DNA of 12,877 bases from Deltaproteobacteria bacterium (GTDB taxonomy: Bacteria > Bdellovibrionota > UBA1018): contig JABDFB010000065.1 in assembly GCA_013286765.1 (NCBI GenBank), positions 1-12,877 on the forward strand. Direction: 5' to 3'. How positions within the stretch are numbered: position 1 is the stretch's first letter; each line of letters begins with the position of its first letter. Both the position numbers and the translations under genes were made by a program. The notes beneath the pieces are model-generated. The model ran no database searches. It saw nothing but the letters and a program-made list of their open reading frames with translations, and was not told the DNA's origin. Positions 4,331 to 12,877 of this stretch are shown here, one piece after another.

Positions 4331-6049
4331 ATGCAAAAAAAACTACAGCATTTTCTGATGAACACGATCGTGAGTTCACTTTTTTGTCATATCGCTTTCA
4401 TTCAACCTTACGCTCACGCCCAGATAAACTCTTCGCCGGTTGAAATGAATGCCTACAAACACGTTGAAGCCCTCTATAATAGCAATGCGTTGGACGAGGC
4501 CAAAAGCAAAGCCTCTGATTTTATTACCCACTATCCGGCCAGCCAATTGATTCCTCTGATCGATAATATTCGAGGTCTAATTTTTCTTCGGAATAAACAA
4601 CCCAACGACGCCATCCCTTACTTCCAAAATGCTTTAAAGCAATTGCCGACCGAAAAGGATGAGTACCAGCGCTACCACCACTCGGTACTTTTCAATCTAG
4701 CGACGGCATATTTGGAAGCAGGTCAGCTGGACAATGCTTACCAAACGGTTCAGCAAGTCAAACCAGAGATGTTGGACAAATCGAGCCAAAATAAAACTAA
4801 TATTTTGAAGTCTGCCATCGAGGAAAAGCGAACCAAGCTAGAGAATGACAAAAAAGACCAAGCCCTCGAAAAGACGCAAACAAATTCAGTGGGCATACTT
4901 CTCCCCATGACTGGGAAATTTGCAAAATACGGAATGAAGAGCCTCCAAGCAATTCAACTCGCATTCGAGATCTTTGGTGAAGGCGATTCGATCCGACCCA
5001 AATTAAATCTGATTATTGAAGACAGCGGAGATCAAACCGACCAAACTTTAACGGCGCTCAATCGCTTGGCTCTGAAACACCGAGTCGTTGCCGTGATTGG
5101 GCCGATGCTCACTAAGGGCATTGATGAAATTACAAAACGCGCAGAGACTCTCAAGATACCCCTACTCTCCTTGTCCCGACGATCATCCACTTTCGCGAGT
5201 GAATATGTCATTTCTGCGGGCCTTACCCAACAAATGCAAGCCACCGAGATGGCCAGGCACGCTGTTGAAAGCCTGAATCTCAAAAAATTTGCGATTATTT
5301 ATCCGGATGAAAAACTAGGCTACGAACTTGGCAATAGCTTCTGGGATGCAGTCGAATCGCTGGGTGGCAAGGTAGTCGGAGCCGAAGCTTATACGCCGGG
5401 CCAAACGGATTTTAGAAAGACAGTCGACAAACTCGCAGGGCTTTACTATTCTGACGCAAGGCATCGAGAGCTGGAAGAACTAACAAAACAGCGTGAGACC
5501 AACAATATAACGCGGCGAACCAGAAAAACTGAACAATTTTATTCGCTCAAGCCCATTGTAGACTTCGAAGCGGTTTTTGTAGCTGACGATCCGATTCAGG
5601 AAGGTCAAATCCTCCCCACTTTTGCGTACCGAGACGTTGACCATGTTCGCTTTCTGGGTACTTCGTCTTGGAACTCAGCAGAGTTTGTATCTAGGACTCA
5701 AAGTTATGGCGAAAACGCAGCTTTAGTAGACGTTTACCCTCCTGGACCTGCGTCGAACTCCCCAATGATGACACGTTTTGTCGAAAATTATAAAACCCAA
5801 TTTGGGCAAGAACCCTCCTCGCTCGAAGCCATCGCCTACGATGCGGGAAGAATCTTGGCAAATCTTCTCTCGCACCATTCTGAGTCGGATCAGTTTACAA
5901 GGGCAGATCTTCTGAAAGAACTCACCTCTGTTAAGAATTTTTCCGGCGTCACAGGAACCATTACCTTCAAAACCGGACAGTTTTTTAGACCGATGAAACT
6001 CATCATTGTCAAGAGCGGCCAGTTGACAGAAGCCCGCACATCCCAGTGA
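4331..6049 (+). CDS. secreted LpoA-like penicillin-binding-protein activator (TPR plus periplasmic-binding fold)
   Basis: This 572-residue protein is predicted to be exported. The N-terminus has two lysines, a hydrophobic stretch (about 9-25) and a likely signal peptidase I site after AHA (28-30). There is no lipobox (the residues before C19 are SLF), so unlike E. coli LpoA it is probably not a lipoprotein. Residues about 40-165 form TPR-like helical pairs. From V187 (VGILLPMTGKFAKYG) to the end it has a type I periplasmic-binding fold, as in branched-chain amino-acid receptors and the C-domain of LpoA/YraM. That fold carries motifs such as VVAVIGPMLTKG and FAIIYPDEKLGYELGNSFWD, and a charged insertion around 375-412. 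The TPR-plus-binding-fold order is that of LpoA, which stimulates the peptidoglycan synthase PBP1A. The PBP-activator role is inferred from architecture. The start lies 9 bases after the dnaJ stop, with only a weak ribosome site, so it is probably in the same transcript. A solute-receptor role is the main alternative. Confidence 0.8.
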   Translation: MQKKLQHFLMNTIVSSLFCHIAFIQPYAHAQINSSPVEMNAYKHVEALYNSNALDEAKSKASDFITHYPASQLIPLIDNIRGLIFLRNKQPNDAIPYFQNALKQLPTEKDEYQRYHHSVLFNLATAYLEAGQLDNAYQTVQQVKPEMLDKSSQNKTNILKSAIEEKRTKLENDKKDQALEKTQTNSVGILLPMTGKFAKYGMKSLQAIQLAFEIFGEGDSIRPKLNLIIEDSGDQTDQTLTALNRLALKHRVVAVIGPMLTKGIDEITKRAETLKIPLLSLSRRSSTFASEYVISAGLTQQMQATEMARHAVESLNLKKFAIIYPDEKLGYELGNSFWDAVESLGGKVVGAEAYTPGQTDFRKTVDKLAGLYYSDARHRELEELTKQRETNNITRRTRKTEQFYSLKPIVDFEAVFVADDPIQEGQILPTFAYRDVDHVRFLGTSSWNSAEFVSRTQSYGENAALVDVYPPGPASNSPMMTRFVENYKTQFGQEPSSLEAIAYDAGRILANLLSHHSESDQFTRADLLKELTSVKNFSGVTGTITFKTGQFFRPMKLIIVKSGQLTEARTSQ

Positions 6050-6153: not shown

Positions 6154-7557
6154 GTGGGACTTCGATTTGACCCTGTAGGTGGGGGTCAGTTTAAGCAAGC
6201 CGTTCAAAGTATTATTGAAGCTGAAAGCCAGCCTCTCAAGGCTTTGAACGGGCGTAAGTCCAAAGAAGACGCCAAAATGAAGCTCTTACAGGACTTTAAG
6301 GGCAAGTTTAATGGTTTGGACAAATTGCTCACCGACATGTCGGACTTTCGAAAGTTCAGAGAGTTAAAAGTCGACCTAGGGGAGGGCAAAGATATTGTCG
6401 ACGTCTCCTTGGATAAAGATCGAGTAGAACCAGGCAGATACACTATCGAAATTGAATCACTAGCGGAACGCACTTCCTTGATCACCAACGGCATCTCGGA
6501 TCCCAATGAACCCCTCCTAGGTACAGGTTTCATCGTTTTTGAATCAGAAGATCATGACACAATAGAAGTTTATATAGATGACAAGCATTCCAGTCTCAAC
6601 GGAATAGCCAGTCTTATTAATCGTAATGAAAACTCGCCCTATCAAGCCTCTGTTATCAAAGACGATTCTGATGCTGACAGTCCTTGGAAGCTTCTTTTTG
6701 CTGCAAAAAAGGAGGGTGAGGCTCACCAGCTTGATCGCCCGGACTTTTACTTTTCTAGTGCAAATGCAGATCTTTATATTGATGACGATGTCGAATCTCG
6801 TAACGCGAAGATACTCATCGACGGATTTCGCGTCGAAAAAGATAGCAATGATGAAAAAGATTTTCTGCCTGGGGTCAATCTACATATAAAGCAAGCGAGT
6901 CCGGGAAAGCCTTTTACCCTGACGATTACGGAAGACTTTCAGAAAATATCAGGAAAGGTGAAGGCCGTTCTCGATCAAGTCAATCAAATCCTAGGATTCA
7001 TTACAAAACAAAATGCCGTAGACGCCAATTCAGACACTTCAACGACTTTTGCCGGAGATACCAGCCTCCAGTCTTTGGAATACCAGATACGCAACGCCGT
7101 TCACCAGGGCTATGGAATTGTTGAAGAAGATACTCATAACGAAAAATATGTCTATCTCAGTCAAATCGGAGTGGAATTCGATAAAGCCGGTCAAATTGCT
7201 TTCAAAGAAGACAAGTTTGCCGCGAATCTTGAAAAAAATTATGGCTCCATTGCCATGGCAGTCAGCGGCCCCAACGGATTTGCCAATCAAATGAAAAGAC
7301 TGATCGACAGCTTTACAAGACCTCAGACTGGCTCTTTGACCTCAAAGGAACAAGGGATCAAAACGAGAATTAAAGATATCGATAACCAAATCGACCAAAA
7401 AAACCGCTACCTGGACCAGAGGAAACAAGCTTTGACAGATCAATTTGCGAGGCTCGAAGGCACGCTGAGCGGTCTACAAAAGCAACAGCAATATCTTGCT
7501 GCTTCACTTCCCGGTGCCGGAGGTGGAAACCCCATCTCGCAACTTTTAGGAGGCTAA
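6154..7557 (+). CDS. fliD: FliD, flagellar filament cap (hook-associated protein 2)
   Basis: This 467-residue protein is exported through the flagellar secretion channel and forms the cap under which flagellin subunits fold onto the growing filament. Residues about 8-105 match the FliD N-terminal domain: RFDPVGGGQFKQAVQSIIEA, then a long amphipathic helix and the segment LVxVSLxKDxVEPGRYTIEI (here ending in GRYTIEIESLAERT). The C-terminal domain occupies about 220-450 and ends in a coiled coil (about 395-445) followed by the Gly-rich tail LPGAGGGNPISQLLGG. The length equals that of E. coli FliD (468). The start is GTG with CTGGAGG at 6141-6147, six bases ahead. No transmembrane segment or signal peptide is seen, as expected for a type III flagellar export substrate. 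The fliS Shine-Dalgarno site lies within the last codons of this gene. Confidence 0.95.
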   Translation: MGLRFDPVGGGQFKQAVQSIIEAESQPLKALNGRKSKEDAKMKLLQDFKGKFNGLDKLLTDMSDFRKFRELKVDLGEGKDIVDVSLDKDRVEPGRYTIEIESLAERTSLITNGISDPNEPLLGTGFIVFESEDHDTIEVYIDDKHSSLNGIASLINRNENSPYQASVIKDDSDADSPWKLLFAAKKEGEAHQLDRPDFYFSSANADLYIDDDVESRNAKILIDGFRVEKDSNDEKDFLPGVNLHIKQASPGKPFTLTITEDFQKISGKVKAVLDQVNQILGFITKQNAVDANSDTSTTFAGDTSLQSLEYQIRNAVHQGYGIVEEDTHNEKYVYLSQIGVEFDKAGQIAFKEDKFAANLEKNYGSIAMAVSGPNGFANQMKRLIDSFTRPQTGSLTSKEQGIKTRIKDIDNQIDQKNRYLDQRKQALTDQFARLEGTLSGLQKQQQYLAASLPGAGGGNPISQLLGG

Positions 7558-7561
7558 TCAT

Positions 7562-7948
7562 ATGTCTAATAGCAGCGCAAATAACTACCGAGAGATGGCG
7601 ATCAAAACTGCAAACCGCGGTCAATTGTTGGTCATGCTCTACGAGGCTGCCATCCGAAATGTCAAAAAAGCGTCGATCGCCCTGGATAAAAAGGACATTG
7701 CTGCCAAGGGCGCTGCCATTAGTAAAGCCCACGATATCGTCAATGAATTGTTAAATACCCTCAATTTCGAAGCCGGTGGAGATATTGCTAGAGAACTCGA
7801 ACGGCTATATAATTTTATTATTGAACACCTGATTGCCGCGAATTTAGAGAACTCAAAGGAAAAACTAAAAGCGATAGAAAAAATTTTAGAGACTCTGCTA
7901 GGTGCTTGGAAAATCGCAGTTGAGAATATGAATCAACAAAAGAAATAA
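7562..7948 (+). CDS. fliS: FliS, flagellin export chaperone
   Basis: This 128-residue cytoplasmic helical protein belongs to the family that binds the C-terminus of flagellin, prevents premature assembly and delivers it to the export gate. Recognisable features are an N-terminal ANNYREMAIKTA segment equivalent to the family's Y-x-x-x-x-V/I-x-T-A motif, QLLVMLYEAAIRNVKKA, and the closing helical block with LLGAWKIAVEN. Family members are usually 120-140 residues. The start ATG is 4 bases after the fliD stop, and AGGAGG at 7548-7553 lies 8 bases before it, so fliD and fliS are likely translationally coupled. The fliD-fliS pairing is itself strong support. No flagellin gene is present in the window. 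Confidence 0.95.
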   Translation: MSNSSANNYREMAIKTANRGQLLVMLYEAAIRNVKKASIALDKKDIAAKGAAISKAHDIVNELLNTLNFEAGGDIARELERLYNFIIEHLIAANLENSKEKLKAIEKILETLLGAWKIAVENMNQQKK

Positions 7949-7959
7949 GAAGCTTGAAC

Positions 7960-8388
7960 ATGGATGTAATAAAACTTCTTGAATGCAAAAATCGCTGGCT
8001 CCTGAGTCTCTTCAATTACTCAGAGCGTTTTTATCTCCAAGTTCAATGTGGAGACTTTGAACTCATTGGTCAATATGAACGCCATCGTCACCGAATCGAC
8101 AAATCATTGTCTACCTGTGATGAACTGATCTATAAAAATAGAACTCAGCTTCTCGAACTAAAAAAAGACCCTCGTTCTTCCAAACATATCGAGAATCTCG
8201 TTGAATATCAAAAACGAATGATTGAAAAAATTTTTAAGGTAAACGAAAATATTATTAAATATATAGAGATTAAAAAATTGGAACTCTGCGGTGAATTGAC
8301 CAAATCAGACCAACAGAAGAAGACTCTTGGAAAATTCAGAAGCACCTGGGTGCCGACCTCCGGCACAGGGCTGGACGGACAATTATGA
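7960..8388 (+). CDS. small FliT/FlgN-like flagellar protein (putative chaperone)
   Basis: This 142-residue, highly charged, all-helical protein lies in the position where FliT usually follows fliS. In other bacteria FliT is the export chaperone for FliD and can bind the flagellar master regulator. Sequence identity to known FliT is not obvious by eye, and the call rests on position, size, helical content and a heptad-like Leu/Ile pattern (residues about 60-110). I start it at ATG 7960, which has AAGAAG (7947-7952) at good spacing. A TTG at 7954 would add two residues but sits one base from that site. The stop overlaps the next start in ATGA (8385-8388). The C-terminal ~25 residues (from about TLGKFRSTW) look disordered, as in FliT-type regulatory tails. 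FlgN-like or unrelated helical protein are alternatives. Confidence 0.6.
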   Translation: MDVIKLLECKNRWLLSLFNYSERFYLQVQCGDFELIGQYERHRHRIDKSLSTCDELIYKNRTQLLELKKDPRSSKHIENLVEYQKRMIEKIFKVNENIIKYIEIKKLELCGELTKSDQQKKTLGKFRSTWVPTSGTGLDGQL

Positions 8389-9356
8389 GCGACTTAGCGA
8401 ATGCACCAACTGGCGAACTAGCCAATAGCAGTACAATAAACGACGCAGAATCGATCTATTTACCGGACAAAAAACTCAATGTCCCTATTCTTCTCAAGCA
8501 CGGAGAGGTTCTATTTAATGCTCATGAATTCTCCCTGGCAAAAAATATTTATCGCCTGCTGGTAGCGTCAGGGGAAGTTACAGGCCTTGGTCTCTTTCAT
8601 CTTGGAAAATGCGCCGAGGCCGAAGGTGACGTAGAAGAGGCGATTTCAAAGTACGAAGAGTCAGCTACTTATCAACCGTCTCTGGATACCTACCGTAAGC
8701 TTGCGGCTCTCTGTTTGAAACAATCAAATGACAGGAAAGCGGCCGAAATTTTTGAACGGGCTATTCTCTTAAAGGATCTCACAAAGACCGTTCTTTTTGA
8801 ACTACACCAAGCCTGTGGAAACTGCTGGTCCCGAGTCAAGGAGATACAACGTGCGGAGACTCACTTCCGAAAATGTCTCGATATCAACCCTTCAGCTGAC
8901 GAGATCAGATCAAATTTAGGAACGATCTATCTACAGGCAAACCAGCTAGACACCGCCAAAAGGAATTTTAGAGATGCTATTGCCTCTAATCCTGAAAACT
9001 CCTTAGCTCTTGCGGGCTTAGGAATGTGTTTTTATCTCGAAAATGATAAGAAATCTGCCCACGACACGTTCGTTCGATCCTTAGAACTGAATATTCGGAA
9101 CTCAGCAGCTCTGTTTCATCTTATTAAATGTGCTTATGAAATTAGAAGCTATGCAGTCGCAACGAAAATCCTAACAGAATATGTCGAAATAGCGCCCGTA
9201 CAACCTGACCTTCTCTACTGCCTGGCAGGACTCCAATTTCAACTCGGCAAAATGAAAGAAGCAAGAGCAACCGCTCAAAAAGTGATTCAAATCCGGCCGG
9301 AACATGCCGCGGTTTTGGAATTGATCAAGAAGATCGAGAGGTATCATGGGAATTGA
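8385..9356 (+). CDS. eight-unit TPR protein of the flagellar cluster
   Basis: This 323-residue soluble protein has no signal peptide or membrane segment. After a disordered ~30-residue N-terminus, about eight tandem tetratricopeptide units of ~34 residues cover the rest (roughly 35-318). Typical unit features recur: an A/G at helix-A position 8, A at 20 and P near 32, as in ALAGLGMCFYLENDKKSAHD and GTIYLQANQLDTAKRNFRDA. The fourth unit is irregular, with a longer loop (CGNCWSRVKEIQRAE). TPR superhelices are protein-binding scaffolds, and no enzymatic motif is visible. The start overlaps the preceding stop in ATGA, and its 3' end overlaps the next small gene by 11 bases. A partner or substrate-recruiting role for the GT9 enzyme two genes on, or for a flagellar export component, is inferred from context only. 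Confidence 0.85.
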   Translation: MSDLANAPTGELANSSTINDAESIYLPDKKLNVPILLKHGEVLFNAHEFSLAKNIYRLLVASGEVTGLGLFHLGKCAEAEGDVEEAISKYEESATYQPSLDTYRKLAALCLKQSNDRKAAEIFERAILLKDLTKTVLFELHQACGNCWSRVKEIQRAETHFRKCLDINPSADEIRSNLGTIYLQANQLDTAKRNFRDAIASNPENSLALAGLGMCFYLENDKKSAHDTFVRSLELNIRNSAALFHLIKCAYEIRSYAVATKILTEYVEIAPVQPDLLYCLAGLQFQLGKMKEARATAQKVIQIRPEHAAVLELIKKIERYHGN

Positions 9357-9540
9357 AATTAAACGCCTAATGGGAGAGGTAACCAAACATCCCGAAAGCG
9401 ATGAACGTAATGTGGAACTTATTCTAAAACTTTTGTTAGAATCTCTAATAGCAGAGCAGCCGATATTGAAACATTATAGTAGTCAAAGTCAAAACAGCAG
9501 TGACACCGCTGAAATTTGCGGACTCGAGGGTAACGCGTGA
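9346..9540 (+). CDS. small 64-residue protein of unknown function
   Basis: The ATG overlaps the 3' end of the TPR gene by 11 bases. GAGAGG at 9336-9341 lies four bases ahead of it, and the stop shares GTGA with the start of the next gene (9537-9540). Signals at both ends and lock-step overlaps argue that this is a real gene. The product has a charged N-terminal helix, a leucine-rich helix (about 22-37, ELILKLLLESLIAEQP) and a Ser/Gln-rich, probably disordered tail. No signal peptide or true membrane segment is evident; the leucine stretch is interrupted by charges. I do not recognise a family. It may be an adaptor between the neighbouring TPR and glycosyltransferase proteins, or it may simply couple their translation. 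Confidence 0.7.
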   Translation: MGIEIKRLMGEVTKHPESDERNVELILKLLLESLIAEQPILKHYSSQSQNSSDTAEICGLEGNA

Positions 9541-11267
9541 GTAATCAAGTGAGATGTCTCGTTATTCAAATTGCGGCCGTCAGTGATGTACTACAAAGTT
9601 TGATGGCACTTCGAGCGGCAAAACAGCTCTATCCCGAACTAGAGATTCATCTATTGGTGCGCGAAAAAAACGCTGCTCCTGCAAAGAAGGTTCCCTGGAT
9701 TACGCAGGTTTATACTCTTCCGACAGAACAAATCCTTGAACCTATTCTCAGAAATCCTAGTGATAATAACCAGGCTTTCAAAAATCTGGCTAAATGGCTC
9801 ATTCCTTTGGCAGAAAAGCCATGGGATATGCTGGTGAATTGGACCTTTTCTGAAGCAAGCAGTTATATTTCGGGTCTAGTACCTTCAAAGGTAAAACTTG
9901 GTTATTCATGCCGTCCTGACGGGGGTTTCTACGCCACCGATGGCTGGAGTCATTACGTGCAGGCGATTGTACAGGAAAAGATCAAGCAGAATATCCATTT
10001 AACGGATGTCCTGACAACCCAATTCCTGACTGCCCTCCAGATCCATCTGGGTGACCCCCTTTCCAATGGAGACTCTCCCGTTACTTCTAAGTACTTCTTT
10101 TCTTTAAAATTGACTGAGGAAGAAATAGAAAGATTCCCCAGAACAGCCAATAAGAAATGGATCGCCATTCAACTCGGTTCTGGCGATCCGAATAAAGCTT
10201 GGAAACCTGAAAACTGGGCTAAACTCGCTGAATCTGTTTTATTAAATCATCCGGATTACGGAATTCTCCTCCTAGGTGGGCCCGAAGATATTCCTAGAGA
10301 GCAGGCCTTTTACAATGCCCTTACGCCGGAACTCCAAACAGAATTTGAAGACTCTCACTCGATGGTTTCATTGGTTGGCGATACTCACTTTGACCTCTGG
10401 GCATCTGCGGTAAGCTTGAGTTCTTGGCTCTTTTCTTGCGAAACTGCGGCTGTTCATTTGGCCAGTGTCTTAGGAACCAGAATTCTAAATATTTCTGTAG
10501 GCGCCTCACGCTTCCACGAAACCGGTCCCTATGGCAATGGACACTATGTTATTAAGGATTTTGATTTGCTCAATGCAAAGGATGTTTATGAAGTTTGGAA
10601 TCACGTTATTCAGGGCAAGACCTCAGCACTTGCCGACTCTATTCCAAAAAATGTTCAAGTCTATAAATCCCGAATCAGGCAATCTCAGGATGGCGGTGGG
10701 GTTGTTTATGAGACAGTCACCGCACAACCGTTAGACTTAGAAAACTGGTCTTCGATGGTTCTAGGTCATATCGCTCGTTATTGGTATTGCGGATGGACAC
10801 CGGATATTGGAAAAGAAATTCAGCGAGAAATGGTCACCCCTGCACTCGTTCAAAATCTGAGAAGTTTGAAGGAAACTTCCGAAATATTCCTAAAAATCTA
10901 CGAAAAAGCGTGCCAAACCGCTATTGATCTCAAGAACAAGAGCTCGCACCTCAAGTCAGAAAAAGTTATGGAAGTTCAGGAGCGAGAAGAACTTGAAAAA
11001 CTCGGTGAATCTTTAATCCAACTGGACACATTGACTGAGCGGCTCATTCAAATTCACCCTTCGCTCAAGGCGTTTCTCAATATGACCAAAGTCCTGATGC
11101 ACCATTTGGATGGTAATCATATCTCTGAAATTAGCAAGGATGCAGCTGATAGCTACCAACAAGTCAAAGAAGGCGTCACAATTTTTAGAGATTGGATCGA
11201 CTACACCCTGAAATTGATCAAGCCTTTCAAGATTGAGGCAGCCTCTCCTCCTCCGATCTCACTTTAG
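9537..11267 (+). CDS. GT9-type (heptosyltransferase-like) glycosyltransferase with long helical C-terminal extension
   Basis: This 576-residue protein has an N-terminal ~350 residues resembling the GT-B fold of ADP-heptose:LPS heptosyltransferases (family GT9). The N-terminal AVSDVLQSLMALRAAK aligns with the heptosyltransferase segment MGDVLHTLPAL and keeps the catalytic Asp (D17), with Ser for Gly and Met for Pro. The donor-site region keeps IQLGSGDPNKAWKPENWAKL (K220) and LLLGGPED. The SCETAAVHLASVLGT segment has Glu302 where the usual residue is Asp (D-[ST]-G-x-x-H). ETGPYG near 330 fits the family's late motif. After about residue 370 it carries ~200 residues of helical, coiled-coil-prone sequence absent from LPS enzymes. 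Start GTG overlaps the preceding stop. Sitting after fliD-fliS suggests it modifies flagellin or FliD; LPS-core synthesis is the alternative. Donor and acceptor are unknown. It ends 21 bases from the convergent msrBA gene, without a clear terminator. Confidence 0.8.
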   Translation: MSNQVRCLVIQIAAVSDVLQSLMALRAAKQLYPELEIHLLVREKNAAPAKKVPWITQVYTLPTEQILEPILRNPSDNNQAFKNLAKWLIPLAEKPWDMLVNWTFSEASSYISGLVPSKVKLGYSCRPDGGFYATDGWSHYVQAIVQEKIKQNIHLTDVLTTQFLTALQIHLGDPLSNGDSPVTSKYFFSLKLTEEEIERFPRTANKKWIAIQLGSGDPNKAWKPENWAKLAESVLLNHPDYGILLLGGPEDIPREQAFYNALTPELQTEFEDSHSMVSLVGDTHFDLWASAVSLSSWLFSCETAAVHLASVLGTRILNISVGASRFHETGPYGNGHYVIKDFDLLNAKDVYEVWNHVIQGKTSALADSIPKNVQVYKSRIRQSQDGGGVVYETVTAQPLDLENWSSMVLGHIARYWYCGWTPDIGKEIQREMVTPALVQNLRSLKETSEIFLKIYEKACQTAIDLKNKSSHLKSEKVMEVQEREELEKLGESLIQLDTLTERLIQIHPSLKAFLNMTKVLMHHLDGNHISEISKDAADSYQQVKEGVTIFRDWIDYTLKLIKPFKIEAASPPPISL

Positions 11268-11288: not shown

Positions 11289-12449
11289 TTAGAACTCAAA
11301 GTCTCTGACTCTGTGACAAGTATATCCGTCCGGATGTTTTACTAAATACTTCTGATGAAAATCCTCGGCGTCGTAAAAAGGACGGGACTGCTCAATGGTA
11401 GTCATGACTTTTCCGGACCACTTTCCAGAGTGATTGACCATTTCTTTGACCTTCTCTGCAATCTTCTTCTGCTCTTCATTTTCATAAAAGATCGCAGAAC
11501 GATATTGCGTGCCCTTATCGTTGCCTTGTCGATTGAGGGTGGTTGGGTCATGGATCCGAAAGAAATACTTTAAGAGTGCTTCATAGCTCAGTATAGACGG
11601 ATCAAAAATCACCTTTACTGACTCGGCGTGTCCTGAGTTCCCTTCATGAACAATTTCATAGTTAGGATCAGCAGCACTCCCGCCCGTATACCCTACCCGA
11701 GTTTCAATTACGCCCGGAAGTTTTCGGAGGAGGTCTTCCATGCCCCAAAAGCACCCACCTGCCAGAATCGCTTCTTCTCGCTTTTCTTTCTTTGTTCCAG
11801 GAAACTCCCGAGAAGCCGACGTACTATTGACGATTCCGGTAGAAGCTCCAGATGGAGCTCTGTCAATAAACTGAGACAAATTCGAAGGCTTGAGACCAAA
11901 AAGCGTTAAATATTGCCCGTAGCCCTCTTTTTCCATCTCCTCGACGGGAATAAATCGGAGTGATGCAGAGTTAATACAGTATCTCAATCCGGTAGGCCCA
12001 GGACCGTCATTAAAGACGTGTCCGAGATGGGAGTCTGCATTCTTAGACCGCACTTCAGTTCTTTCTAGAAATAACTCATTGTCAGTGTGGGCTGTCACTT
12101 CTCCGATCGGTTTTGTAAAACTCGGCCAGCCTGACTTCGAATCAAATTTATCGGTCGAGCTAAAGAGAGGTTCGCCACTGACCACGTCGACATAGATTCC
12201 AGGTTTCTTATTATTCCAATATAGATTGTGAAAGGGCGCTTCGGTTCCTTTCTCCTGAGTCACCCTGTATTGCTCGGACGACAATTTCGACTTCAACGAA
12301 GTCTTGTCGGGTCTTTTAAAGTTTTTCATGGTGGATACTCCTTTTTTGCGAGCTGGGACCTCAGCGCCAGTTTCTTGTCCTATTCCCAAGATTACCATTT
12401 GAAATAACACACCTGCTAAAACAAAGAAACTGAACCTGCAAGCAGCCAT
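11289..12449 (-). CDS. MsrB-MsrA fusion, peptide methionine sulfoxide reductase with signal peptide
   Basis: This 386-residue bifunctional enzyme reduces methionine-R-sulfoxide (MsrB part) and methionine-S-sulfoxide (MsrA part) in proteins. The MsrB domain is about 58-168: [40 protein letters not shown] with catalytic C158. The MsrA domain is about 226-386: GGCFWG with catalytic C233, NSGHAES, QYRSAI, and C378 near the end as likely resolving cysteine. MsrB lacks the usual zinc-binding CxxC pairs (YVDVVSG instead) and its resolving cysteine is Ser (S106 in SKSGWPSF). Residues 1-34 form a plausible signal peptide (hydrophobic 6-24, candidate cleavage after VPA), suggesting a periplasmic enzyme. 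AGGGAGG (12454-12460) lies four bases before the ATG. A second well-placed site precedes M41. It lies 33 bases downstream of rarA and may share its transcript. Confidence 0.95.
12327..12341 (-). promoter_or_regulatory. internal ribosome-binding site and ATG within msrBA (alternative start at M41)
   Basis: On the minus strand GGAGT (12341-12337), preceded by a run of A, stands seven bases ahead of an in-frame ATG (12329-12327) encoding M41. Starting here gives a 346-residue protein that omits the signal peptide but keeps both catalytic domains. The site is as good as or better spaced than the one serving the upstream ATG (AGGGAGG, four bases). Either the gene makes two forms, or one of the two starts is the only real one. 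The sequence alone cannot decide. Confidence 0.5.
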
Positions 12450-12482
12450 CAGGCCTCCCTGAGTGCAAAGTAATCCGATGAT

Positions 12483-12877
12483 CTATTCCTCAAAGTTAGA
12501 GTTTAAGCCGTCCAGCTTTTCTTTCAAAATCTTTTCGAAACCGACTTCCTTGGGGACATAGAAGCGCTTTCCTAAAATTTGTTTAGGTAAGTGAATTTGT
12601 TTTATATGACCCTTGGCATCCGAATGAGCATATTGATAGCCTTTGCCATACCCTTCCCGTCGCATCAGCGAAGTTACAGCGTTTCTGAGGTGTCCGGGTA
12701 CGGGCAACGCTCCAGAGCGACGAACCTCTTCGATCGCTTCGTCAATTCCAACATAACTTGCATTGCTCTTAGGTGCCATGGCCAGGTAGGTTACACCTTG
12801 CGCTAGGTTAATGCGCGCCTCTGGCATTCCTACAAATTCGACCGCCTCCTTTACAGCAACCGCTATCGAAATTGCTC
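12483..12877 (-). CDS. rarA: RarA (MgsA), replication-associated AAA+ ATPase, C-terminal part
   Basis: The frame is open from the window edge to TAG at 12483-12485, 131 residues, so the N-terminal and AAA+ parts lie outside. The visible part is the C-terminal MgsA/RarA oligomerisation domain: AVAVKEAVEFVGMPEARIN, then LAQGVTYLAMAPKSNASYVG, VPGHLRNAVTSLMRREGYGKGY, and LPKQILGKRFYVPKEVGFE. These are family hallmarks, and the catalytic Walker motifs are not in view. RarA acts at stalled replication forks with recombination and single-strand-binding proteins. The natural start is off the window; the ATG at 12827 is an internal methionine. The gene precedes msrBA on the same strand by 33 bases. 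Confidence 0.95.
   Translation of the reverse strand, partial: AISIAVAVKEAVEFVGMPEARINLAQGVTYLAMAPKSNASYVGIDEAIEEVRRSGALPVPGHLRNAVTSLMRREGYGKGYQYAHSDAKGHIKQIHLPKQILGKRFYVPKEVGFEKILKEKLDGLNSNFEE

Follow-up and report, generated by a model that had tools for sequence, protein, structure and literature searches.

What is a gene of the heptosyltransferase fold doing among the flagellar genes of a bacterium of the phylum Bdellovibrionota? The question is raised by a stretch of 12,877 nucleotides (the window) from Deltaproteobacteria bacterium (GCA_013286765.1, contig JABDFB010000065.1), in which fliD, fliS and a fliT-like gene are followed by genes for a tetratricopeptide repeat (TPR) protein, a small open reading frame (ORF) and a protein of glycosyltransferase family 9 (GT9). 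A preliminary description of the window, made from its letters alone, had taken this trio as a candidate flagellar glycosylation module. The analysis reported here points to a probable flagellar modification locus, partly related to the Maf systems of flagellin glycosylation, in which catalysis is predicted. We put at roughly 0.6 the probability that the three genes are part of a Bdellovibrionota locus that modifies flagellin (or FliD) by the mechanism proposed below.

Conservation of the locus

Data beyond the window were taken from relatives, namely 191 genomes of the phylum of relative G001. Matches to the GT9 profile (E 1e-5 or better) were present in 148 of them, FliS in 167 and flagellin in 171. 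The strong GT9 matches (E of about 3e-16 or better, among the matches listed) fell in 116 genomes, and in all 96 of these with GT9 and FliS on one contig the two lay within 9 kb of each other (among the matches listed). The other 20 consisted of 13 genomes with GT9 and FliS on different contigs, several of them near contig ends, and 7 without a listed FliS coordinate; in one of the 13, G095, the two genes appear truly separated. None of the 20 genomes without flagellin was among the 116 (among the matches listed). For the strong matches, the check whether this GT9 lineage goes with flagellin came out in favour of the preliminary description.

For the gene arrangement, 80 stretches were fetched as a deliberately mixed set: 20 for their GT9 matches (two without FliS), 40 around FliS, mostly from genomes without strong GT9 matches, and 20 taken at the head of the FliS list. 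Adding the window and L001 gave 80 FliS loci in all, of which 64 had at least 6.5 kb downstream; the fractions are not unbiased. Profiles detected FliD in all 64 of these long loci, FliT in 61, GT9 in 50, TPR in 42 and two further proteins, introduced below as X197 and MafN, in 40 and 26, respectively. The fliD-fliS-TPR-GT9 arrangement, which had been suggested as something to look for in related genomes, is thus widespread in the phylum, as far as this biased sample goes, and the order fliD-fliS-fliT-TPR-small ORF-GT9 represents a genuine, conserved locus. TPR, X197, MafN and GT9 occur in varying combinations, so that none of the partners is indispensable. Loci L062 and L063, also without GT9, carried neither TPR nor X197, and searches of whole draft genomes of the window's wider clade gave no X197 in 18 of 26, several of them with an intact GT9. 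The closest source-named proteins to those of the window were mostly from Bdellovibrionota, and the one relative from a contig search, G001, an Oligoflexia metagenome-assembled genome, carried the same operon. In a literature search covering titles and the beginnings of abstracts, with subscription journals mostly outside it, no report of a GT9 in a Bdellovibrionota flagellar locus was found.

When the window was reread, the genes, coordinates and three overlaps given in the preliminary description were all correct: the stop of the fliT-like gene and the start of the TPR gene form ATGA (8385-8388), the TPR stop and the small-ORF start share 11 bases (9346-9356), and the small-ORF stop and the GT9 start form GTGA (9537-9540). 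Motifs resembling Shine-Dalgarno sequences precede the small ORF (GAGAGG) and the GT9 gene (GAGGG). Stop/start overlaps of this sort are frequent in bacterial operons, and it is the conserved gene order of the locus, not the gene overlaps, that goes beyond chance.

The small ORF matched no family in Pfam or NCBIfam. Its product was aligned with homologs, giving 32 distinct sequences (42-95 amino acids (aa), the window's included) with a common core, read by eye as LLxGE..NPE..DVEQLLxGFLxALLxEQ, and in three close pairs the ratio of non-synonymous to synonymous substitutions (dN/dS) of this very short gene was 0.09, 0.19 and 0.21. Because of this shared core and the low ratios, the small ORF is very likely a genuine gene.

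The GT9 protein

The window GT9 matched PF01075 with an E-value of 3e-10 and 40.1 bits, above the curated cut-off of 22; the NCBIfam models that fitted best, those of lipopolysaccharide (LPS) heptosyltransferases III, I and II, stayed far short of their cut-offs. The protein is modelled as a WaaC-like GT-B domain (residues ~1-395) followed by a conserved helical C-terminal domain (~400-560), the latter covered by no Pfam family, and GT9 lengths in the window's clade were mostly 525-671 aa, compared to 319-357 aa for the Escherichia coli heptosyltransferases. Other lineages carry two tandem GT9 genes. When the C-terminal domain was compared with them, the second copy gave 94.8% (hhalign, E 5e-8) and the first 0.8%; judging by this profile match, the domain is common to the window GT9 and the second tandem copy. 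At the positions of WaaC D13, K192, D261 and H266, which we take to be catalytic and donor-site residues, the window GT9 keeps D17, K220 and H307 and has Glu302 in place of the Asp.

Maf-type components in sister lineages

A protein of 198-272 aa, here called MafN, is encoded 5' of the first GT9 in 27 loci, and 24 of these have two tandem GT9 genes; all 26 long loci with MafN also had a GT9. Against Pfam, its most-matched family was Maf_flag10_N (PF20157; 13/27 members at E 1 or better, best 2.8e-5), followed by Methyltransf_25 (5/27). In hhalign comparisons, MafN matched a clostridial protein (97.0%, E 8e-11) and a Paenibacillus protein (96.8%, E 2e-10), both with a full MptE-like domain (PF01973), the catalytic domain of Maf. 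The product of the gene 3' of GT9, here called X197, proved homologous to an Acetoanaerobium protein (95.5%, E 1.4e-8) whose gene lies between those for flagellin and Maf, on the clostridial stretch that also gave a Maf match of MafN; a weaker match (80%, E 1.4e-5) was to the segment of the Paenibacillus protein that precedes its Maf domains. X197 is possibly a GlfM-like Maf partner, a name drawn from the position of the gene. In L001 it lies at 11899-12489, and its homologs bear precomputed PF26154 and PF27299 labels, which were absent from the Pfam scan made here, so that a family for it may exist in newer Pfam.

A search for the catalytic domain PF01973 itself gave matches in 3 of 47 genomes and none in the other 44; a scan of nine window proteins at E 1 gave none either, and no relatedness between GT9 and Maf could be detected by comparison. 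Because sister-lineage loci carry both MafN and a protein homologous to one encoded next to maf, the locus can be linked to glycosylation; in those lineages it resembles an operon for flagellin glycosylation in which GT9 replaces the catalytic domain of Maf. Maf glycosylates flagellin in the cytosol before handover to the chaperone FliS (PMC4065374), and Maf-1 takes its acceptor specificity from a TPR domain, while another Maf paralog requires GlfM (PMC13317340).

Proposed mechanism and donor sugar

From these components we infer a complex acting in the cytoplasm, before FliS and FliT bring the subunit to the export gate, and doing what Maf or FlmG does in other bacteria. The subunit, unfolded or newly made, would be held by the TPR protein and the C-terminal domain of the GT9, a recruiting role assigned to the TPR and helical domains by analogy; the GT9 would transfer a sugar onto it, most likely heptose from ADP-heptose, and FliS/FliT would then carry the modified subunit to export. 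In sister lineages, the complex would further include the detached Maf N-terminal domain and the GlfM-like Maf partner, the GT9 standing in for the MptE-like catalytic domain of Maf. The overlapping genes fit the assembly of such a complex.

The donor was considered from the biosynthesis genes of the same 47 genomes. Matches of the hldE type were strong (E 6e-79 or better) in 44, with only 26 over the curated cut-off, and weak only in G102, G187 and G042, whereas NeuB was strong (E 7e-65 or better) in 16; weaker NeuB matches may be other synthases. Within the window's clade, nine genomes whose GT9 is intact were compared (G075, G132, G109, G123, G102, G129, G147, G059 and G063): eight have a strong hldE, and for NeuB the match is strong in one (G132) and intermediate in two (G059 and G075). 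Because of the difference between 44 and 16 genomes, ADP-heptose is the likelier donor compared to a nonulosonate, on this indirect evidence. A strong hldE permits heptose transfer from ADP-heptose and does not show it; hldE serves LPS too.

A bolder version of the proposal, offered tentatively and at somewhat less than even odds, is that of a split, GT9-based flagellin heptosylation, in which the Maf catalytic domain was swapped for one or two GT9s, MafN, the GlfM-like protein and TPR were left as separate parts, and in several lineages the GT9 turned into a pseudoenzyme, a dedicated co-chaperone of flagellar export. If true, predatory bacteria and their relatives would decorate their flagella with sugar through a swapped transferase family while keeping other parts of the Maf machinery, which would reveal which parts of a Maf complex carry acceptor recognition and which the chemistry. 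The proposal yields predictions testable in Bdellovibrio bacteriovorus, a cultured and genetically tractable organism.

Active-site loss and a non-catalytic role

Several observations weigh against sugar transfer by this locus as just proposed. The window has neither MafN nor X197 (a MafN profile search of it gave nothing, compared to 27 genes in other loci), and its GT9, besides Glu302 for Asp, has Ser for the Gly preceding Asp17. The gene hldE was also strong in six flagellin-less genomes tested and does not discriminate. Weaker GT9-profile matches occurred in 15 of the 20 flagellin-less genomes (best 1.5e-15, just under the level of strong matches); three of these 15, searched with PF01075, had 1 to 6 other GT9s. 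X197 was found without GT9 in L056, L059, L061, L064 and L067, with no gene between TPR and X197 where the order was examined, and also in L075 and L078, where an unrelated gene for a protein of ~450 aa lies between TPR and X197 (L075:11617-12978, L078:6788-8137); this protein, in the place of the GT9, is possibly a further transferase replacement. TPR stood without GT9 or X197 in L057, L072, L077, L085 and L086, and the adaptor role given to TPR in the preliminary description could not be established, as the gene persists at loci without a GT9. A further difficulty lies in the active site, which is destroyed (none or one of the four residues kept) in 14 of 151 close relatives and 23 of 81 GT9s of a biased phylum sample, in L074, L081, L083 and L084 with MafN retained.

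The four residues were counted in one MAFFT alignment for each set, accepting Asp or Glu at WaaC position 261. In the close family of 151 sequences, four were kept in 106, three in 23 (at least 5 of them only because the row begins after D13) and two in 8. In the phylum sample of 81 GT9s, which over-represents divergent loci, excludes frames below 430 aa or with E above 1e-6 and includes three GT9s from stretches without FliS (L042, L043), four were kept in 51, three in 4 and two in 3. All four were present in 43 of 50 tandem copies and in 8 of 31 single copies. As for 30 paralog frames, four were kept in 23, three in 4 and two in 2, and one frame was wrongly picked.

Decayed GT9s are nevertheless retained. 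Those of L105-L107 are full length, and their dN/dS was 0.06 for L106/L107, at a dS of 0.48, and 0.05 for the other two pairs, with dS saturated; to judge from these ratios, this lineage is under strong purifying selection, which was measured in this one decayed lineage. In a 35-row tree of the window's clade, the state of the active site (at least three residues kept versus fewer) switches at least five times, and the positions conserved in intact and decayed GT9s together differ from the four catalytic ones. Because decayed GT9s are retained, one lineage of them under purifying selection, a non-catalytic role would exist too, and in part of the phylum the role is likely to be partly non-catalytic. 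The claim of a flagellar glycosylation module was strengthened by the Maf-type components in the loci of relatives and weakened by the loss of the active site in many of them. Repeated active-site decay in retained genes offers natural cases of separation of function for the export-chaperone question.

Taken further, these data would make the GT9 of the locus a non-catalytic scaffold or export co-chaperone, any residual catalysis not being its function, whose GT-B fold and helical C-terminus bind flagellin or FliD together with TPR, the small ORF product and FliS/FliT. We regard this as unlikely for the locus as a whole, since 106 of the 151 close relatives hold all four residues and 23 hold three, the tandem lineages keep all four in most of their GT9s, and the association with MafN and the Maf partner suggests an ancestry in glycosylation.

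Substrate and relation to LPS enzymes

If the module modifies a subunit, it could also act on a flagellum-associated substrate other than flagellin, such as the FliD cap, hook-associated proteins or a sheath component. It does sit directly downstream of fliD in the window and the loci examined, but flagellin is the substrate of the Maf proteins (PMC4065374), to which MafN and, by position, X197 are related; the flagellin chaperone FliS is a constant neighbour; and in at least three genomes (G066, G084 and G113) the coordinates place a flagellin gene ~3 kb away from FliS. Such a substrate is thus quite improbable.

A quick tree without bootstrap was built from 67 rows: 37 of the 81 locus-type GT9s, 26 of the 30 paralogs (those of L131, L116, L142 and L138, with wrong, over-long or partial frames, were omitted) and four E. 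coli K-12 Waa proteins. The 37 formed one group (SH-aLRT 99) separate from the 26, four of which were placed by WaaC, WaaF or WaaQ; it is this bipartition that is relied on here. That the GT9 is an ordinary LPS-core or cell-surface heptosyltransferase sitting by chance in a flagellar locus is hardly credible: its family, its best NCBIfam models and the separated GT9 of G095 would fit, but it adjoins FliS in every informative genome and has no strong match in flagellin-less ones (both among the matches listed), and its tree group is distinct from the other paralogs and from WaaC, WaaF, WaaQ and WaaU. An LPS setting for the lineage, considered in the preliminary description, was not found among the matches listed or in the tree.

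Features of the window

Coordinates are given in Table 1. The fliT-like protein, searched alone, gave no match to the FliT family; with 14 aligned members of its family, PF05400 (FliT) was matched by 11 (E 1 or better, best 2.5e-5) and FlgN by 8 (best 3.4e-4). Between dnaJ and fliD lies a gene for a periplasmic-binding-protein/LppC-like protein, an odd constant neighbour of the flagellar operon, the dnaJ-PBP-fliD order being kept in L001, L044, L050 and several others. Directly after the GT9, in the place of X197 in many relatives, is a gene for a fused MsrA-MsrB methionine sulfoxide reductase, the N-terminus of which resembles a signal sequence by eye. Downstream of the module in L112, L057, L072 and L086 come a gene for a protein of 500-650 aa and usually one for a protein resembling a response regulator; genes read as rsmD-like, coaD-like and aminotransferase-like follow.

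Table 1. Features of the fliD-GT9 region, in window coordinates
Feature	Position	Strand	Remarks
Periplasmic-binding-protein (PBP)/LppC-like protein	4331-6049		N-terminal TPR repeats
fliD, filament cap	6154-7557	+	467 aa; PF07195 7e-37, PF02465 4e-9
fliS, flagellin export chaperone	7562-7948	+	128 aa; PF02561 2e-36; TIGR00208 over cut-off
fliT-like gene	7960-8388	+	142 aa from ATG 7960; alternative start TTG 7954
TPR protein, between fliT and GT9	8385-9356	+	323 aa; PF07719 E 3e-27
Conserved small protein	9346-9540	+	64 aa; no named family
GT9 (heptosyltransferase-fold) protein	9537-11267	+	576 aa; PF01075
GT9 Asp17	9585-9587	+	aligns with E. coli K-12 WaaC Asp13
GT9 Lys220	10194-10196	+	aligns with WaaC Lys192
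GT9 motif ETAAVH, Glu302-His307	10440-10457	+	aligns with WaaC DTGLSH (Asp261 to His266)
GT9 C-terminal helical-bundle domain	10737-11216	+	residues ~401-560; from the model
Fused MsrA-MsrB	11289-12449	-	

Comparison with known systems

The proposed action in the cytosol before FliS takes over is that described for Maf (PMC4065374), sister lineages carry homologs of the Maf N-terminal domain and of a protein encoded beside maf, and a TPR domain or GlfM is used by Maf paralogs (PMC13317340). The locus differs from Maf in its GT9 domains, in the lack of PF01973 matches in 44 of the 47 genomes, with NeuB strong in 16, and, in the window, in having neither MafN nor the partner.

FlmG, the flagellin O-glycosyltransferase of Caulobacter, likewise combines a TPR part with a GT-B part; it is cytoplasmic, its TPR half binds flagellin and its GT-B half is needed for transfer (PMC7591256). 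In contrast to this single fused polypeptide, which uses pseudaminic acid, the locus has separate TPR and GT9 genes with a small ORF between them.

A GT9 had been called unusual in such a role, and this holds, with the qualification that one enzyme of the GT9 fold is known to act on a protein, the bacterial autotransporter heptosyltransferase TibC (PMC4358343). TibC is an iron-containing dodecamer; the window GT9 was modelled as a monomer. There is no autotransporter neighbour in the 12.9-kb window, where the neighbours are fliD, fliS, the fliT-like gene, TPR and msrAB. With WaaC, WaaF and WaaQ, finally, the GT9 shares the fold and the Asp, Lys and His positions, with Glu for the second Asp in the window, whereas it belongs to another tree group, is longer and is linked to fliDST and flagellin.

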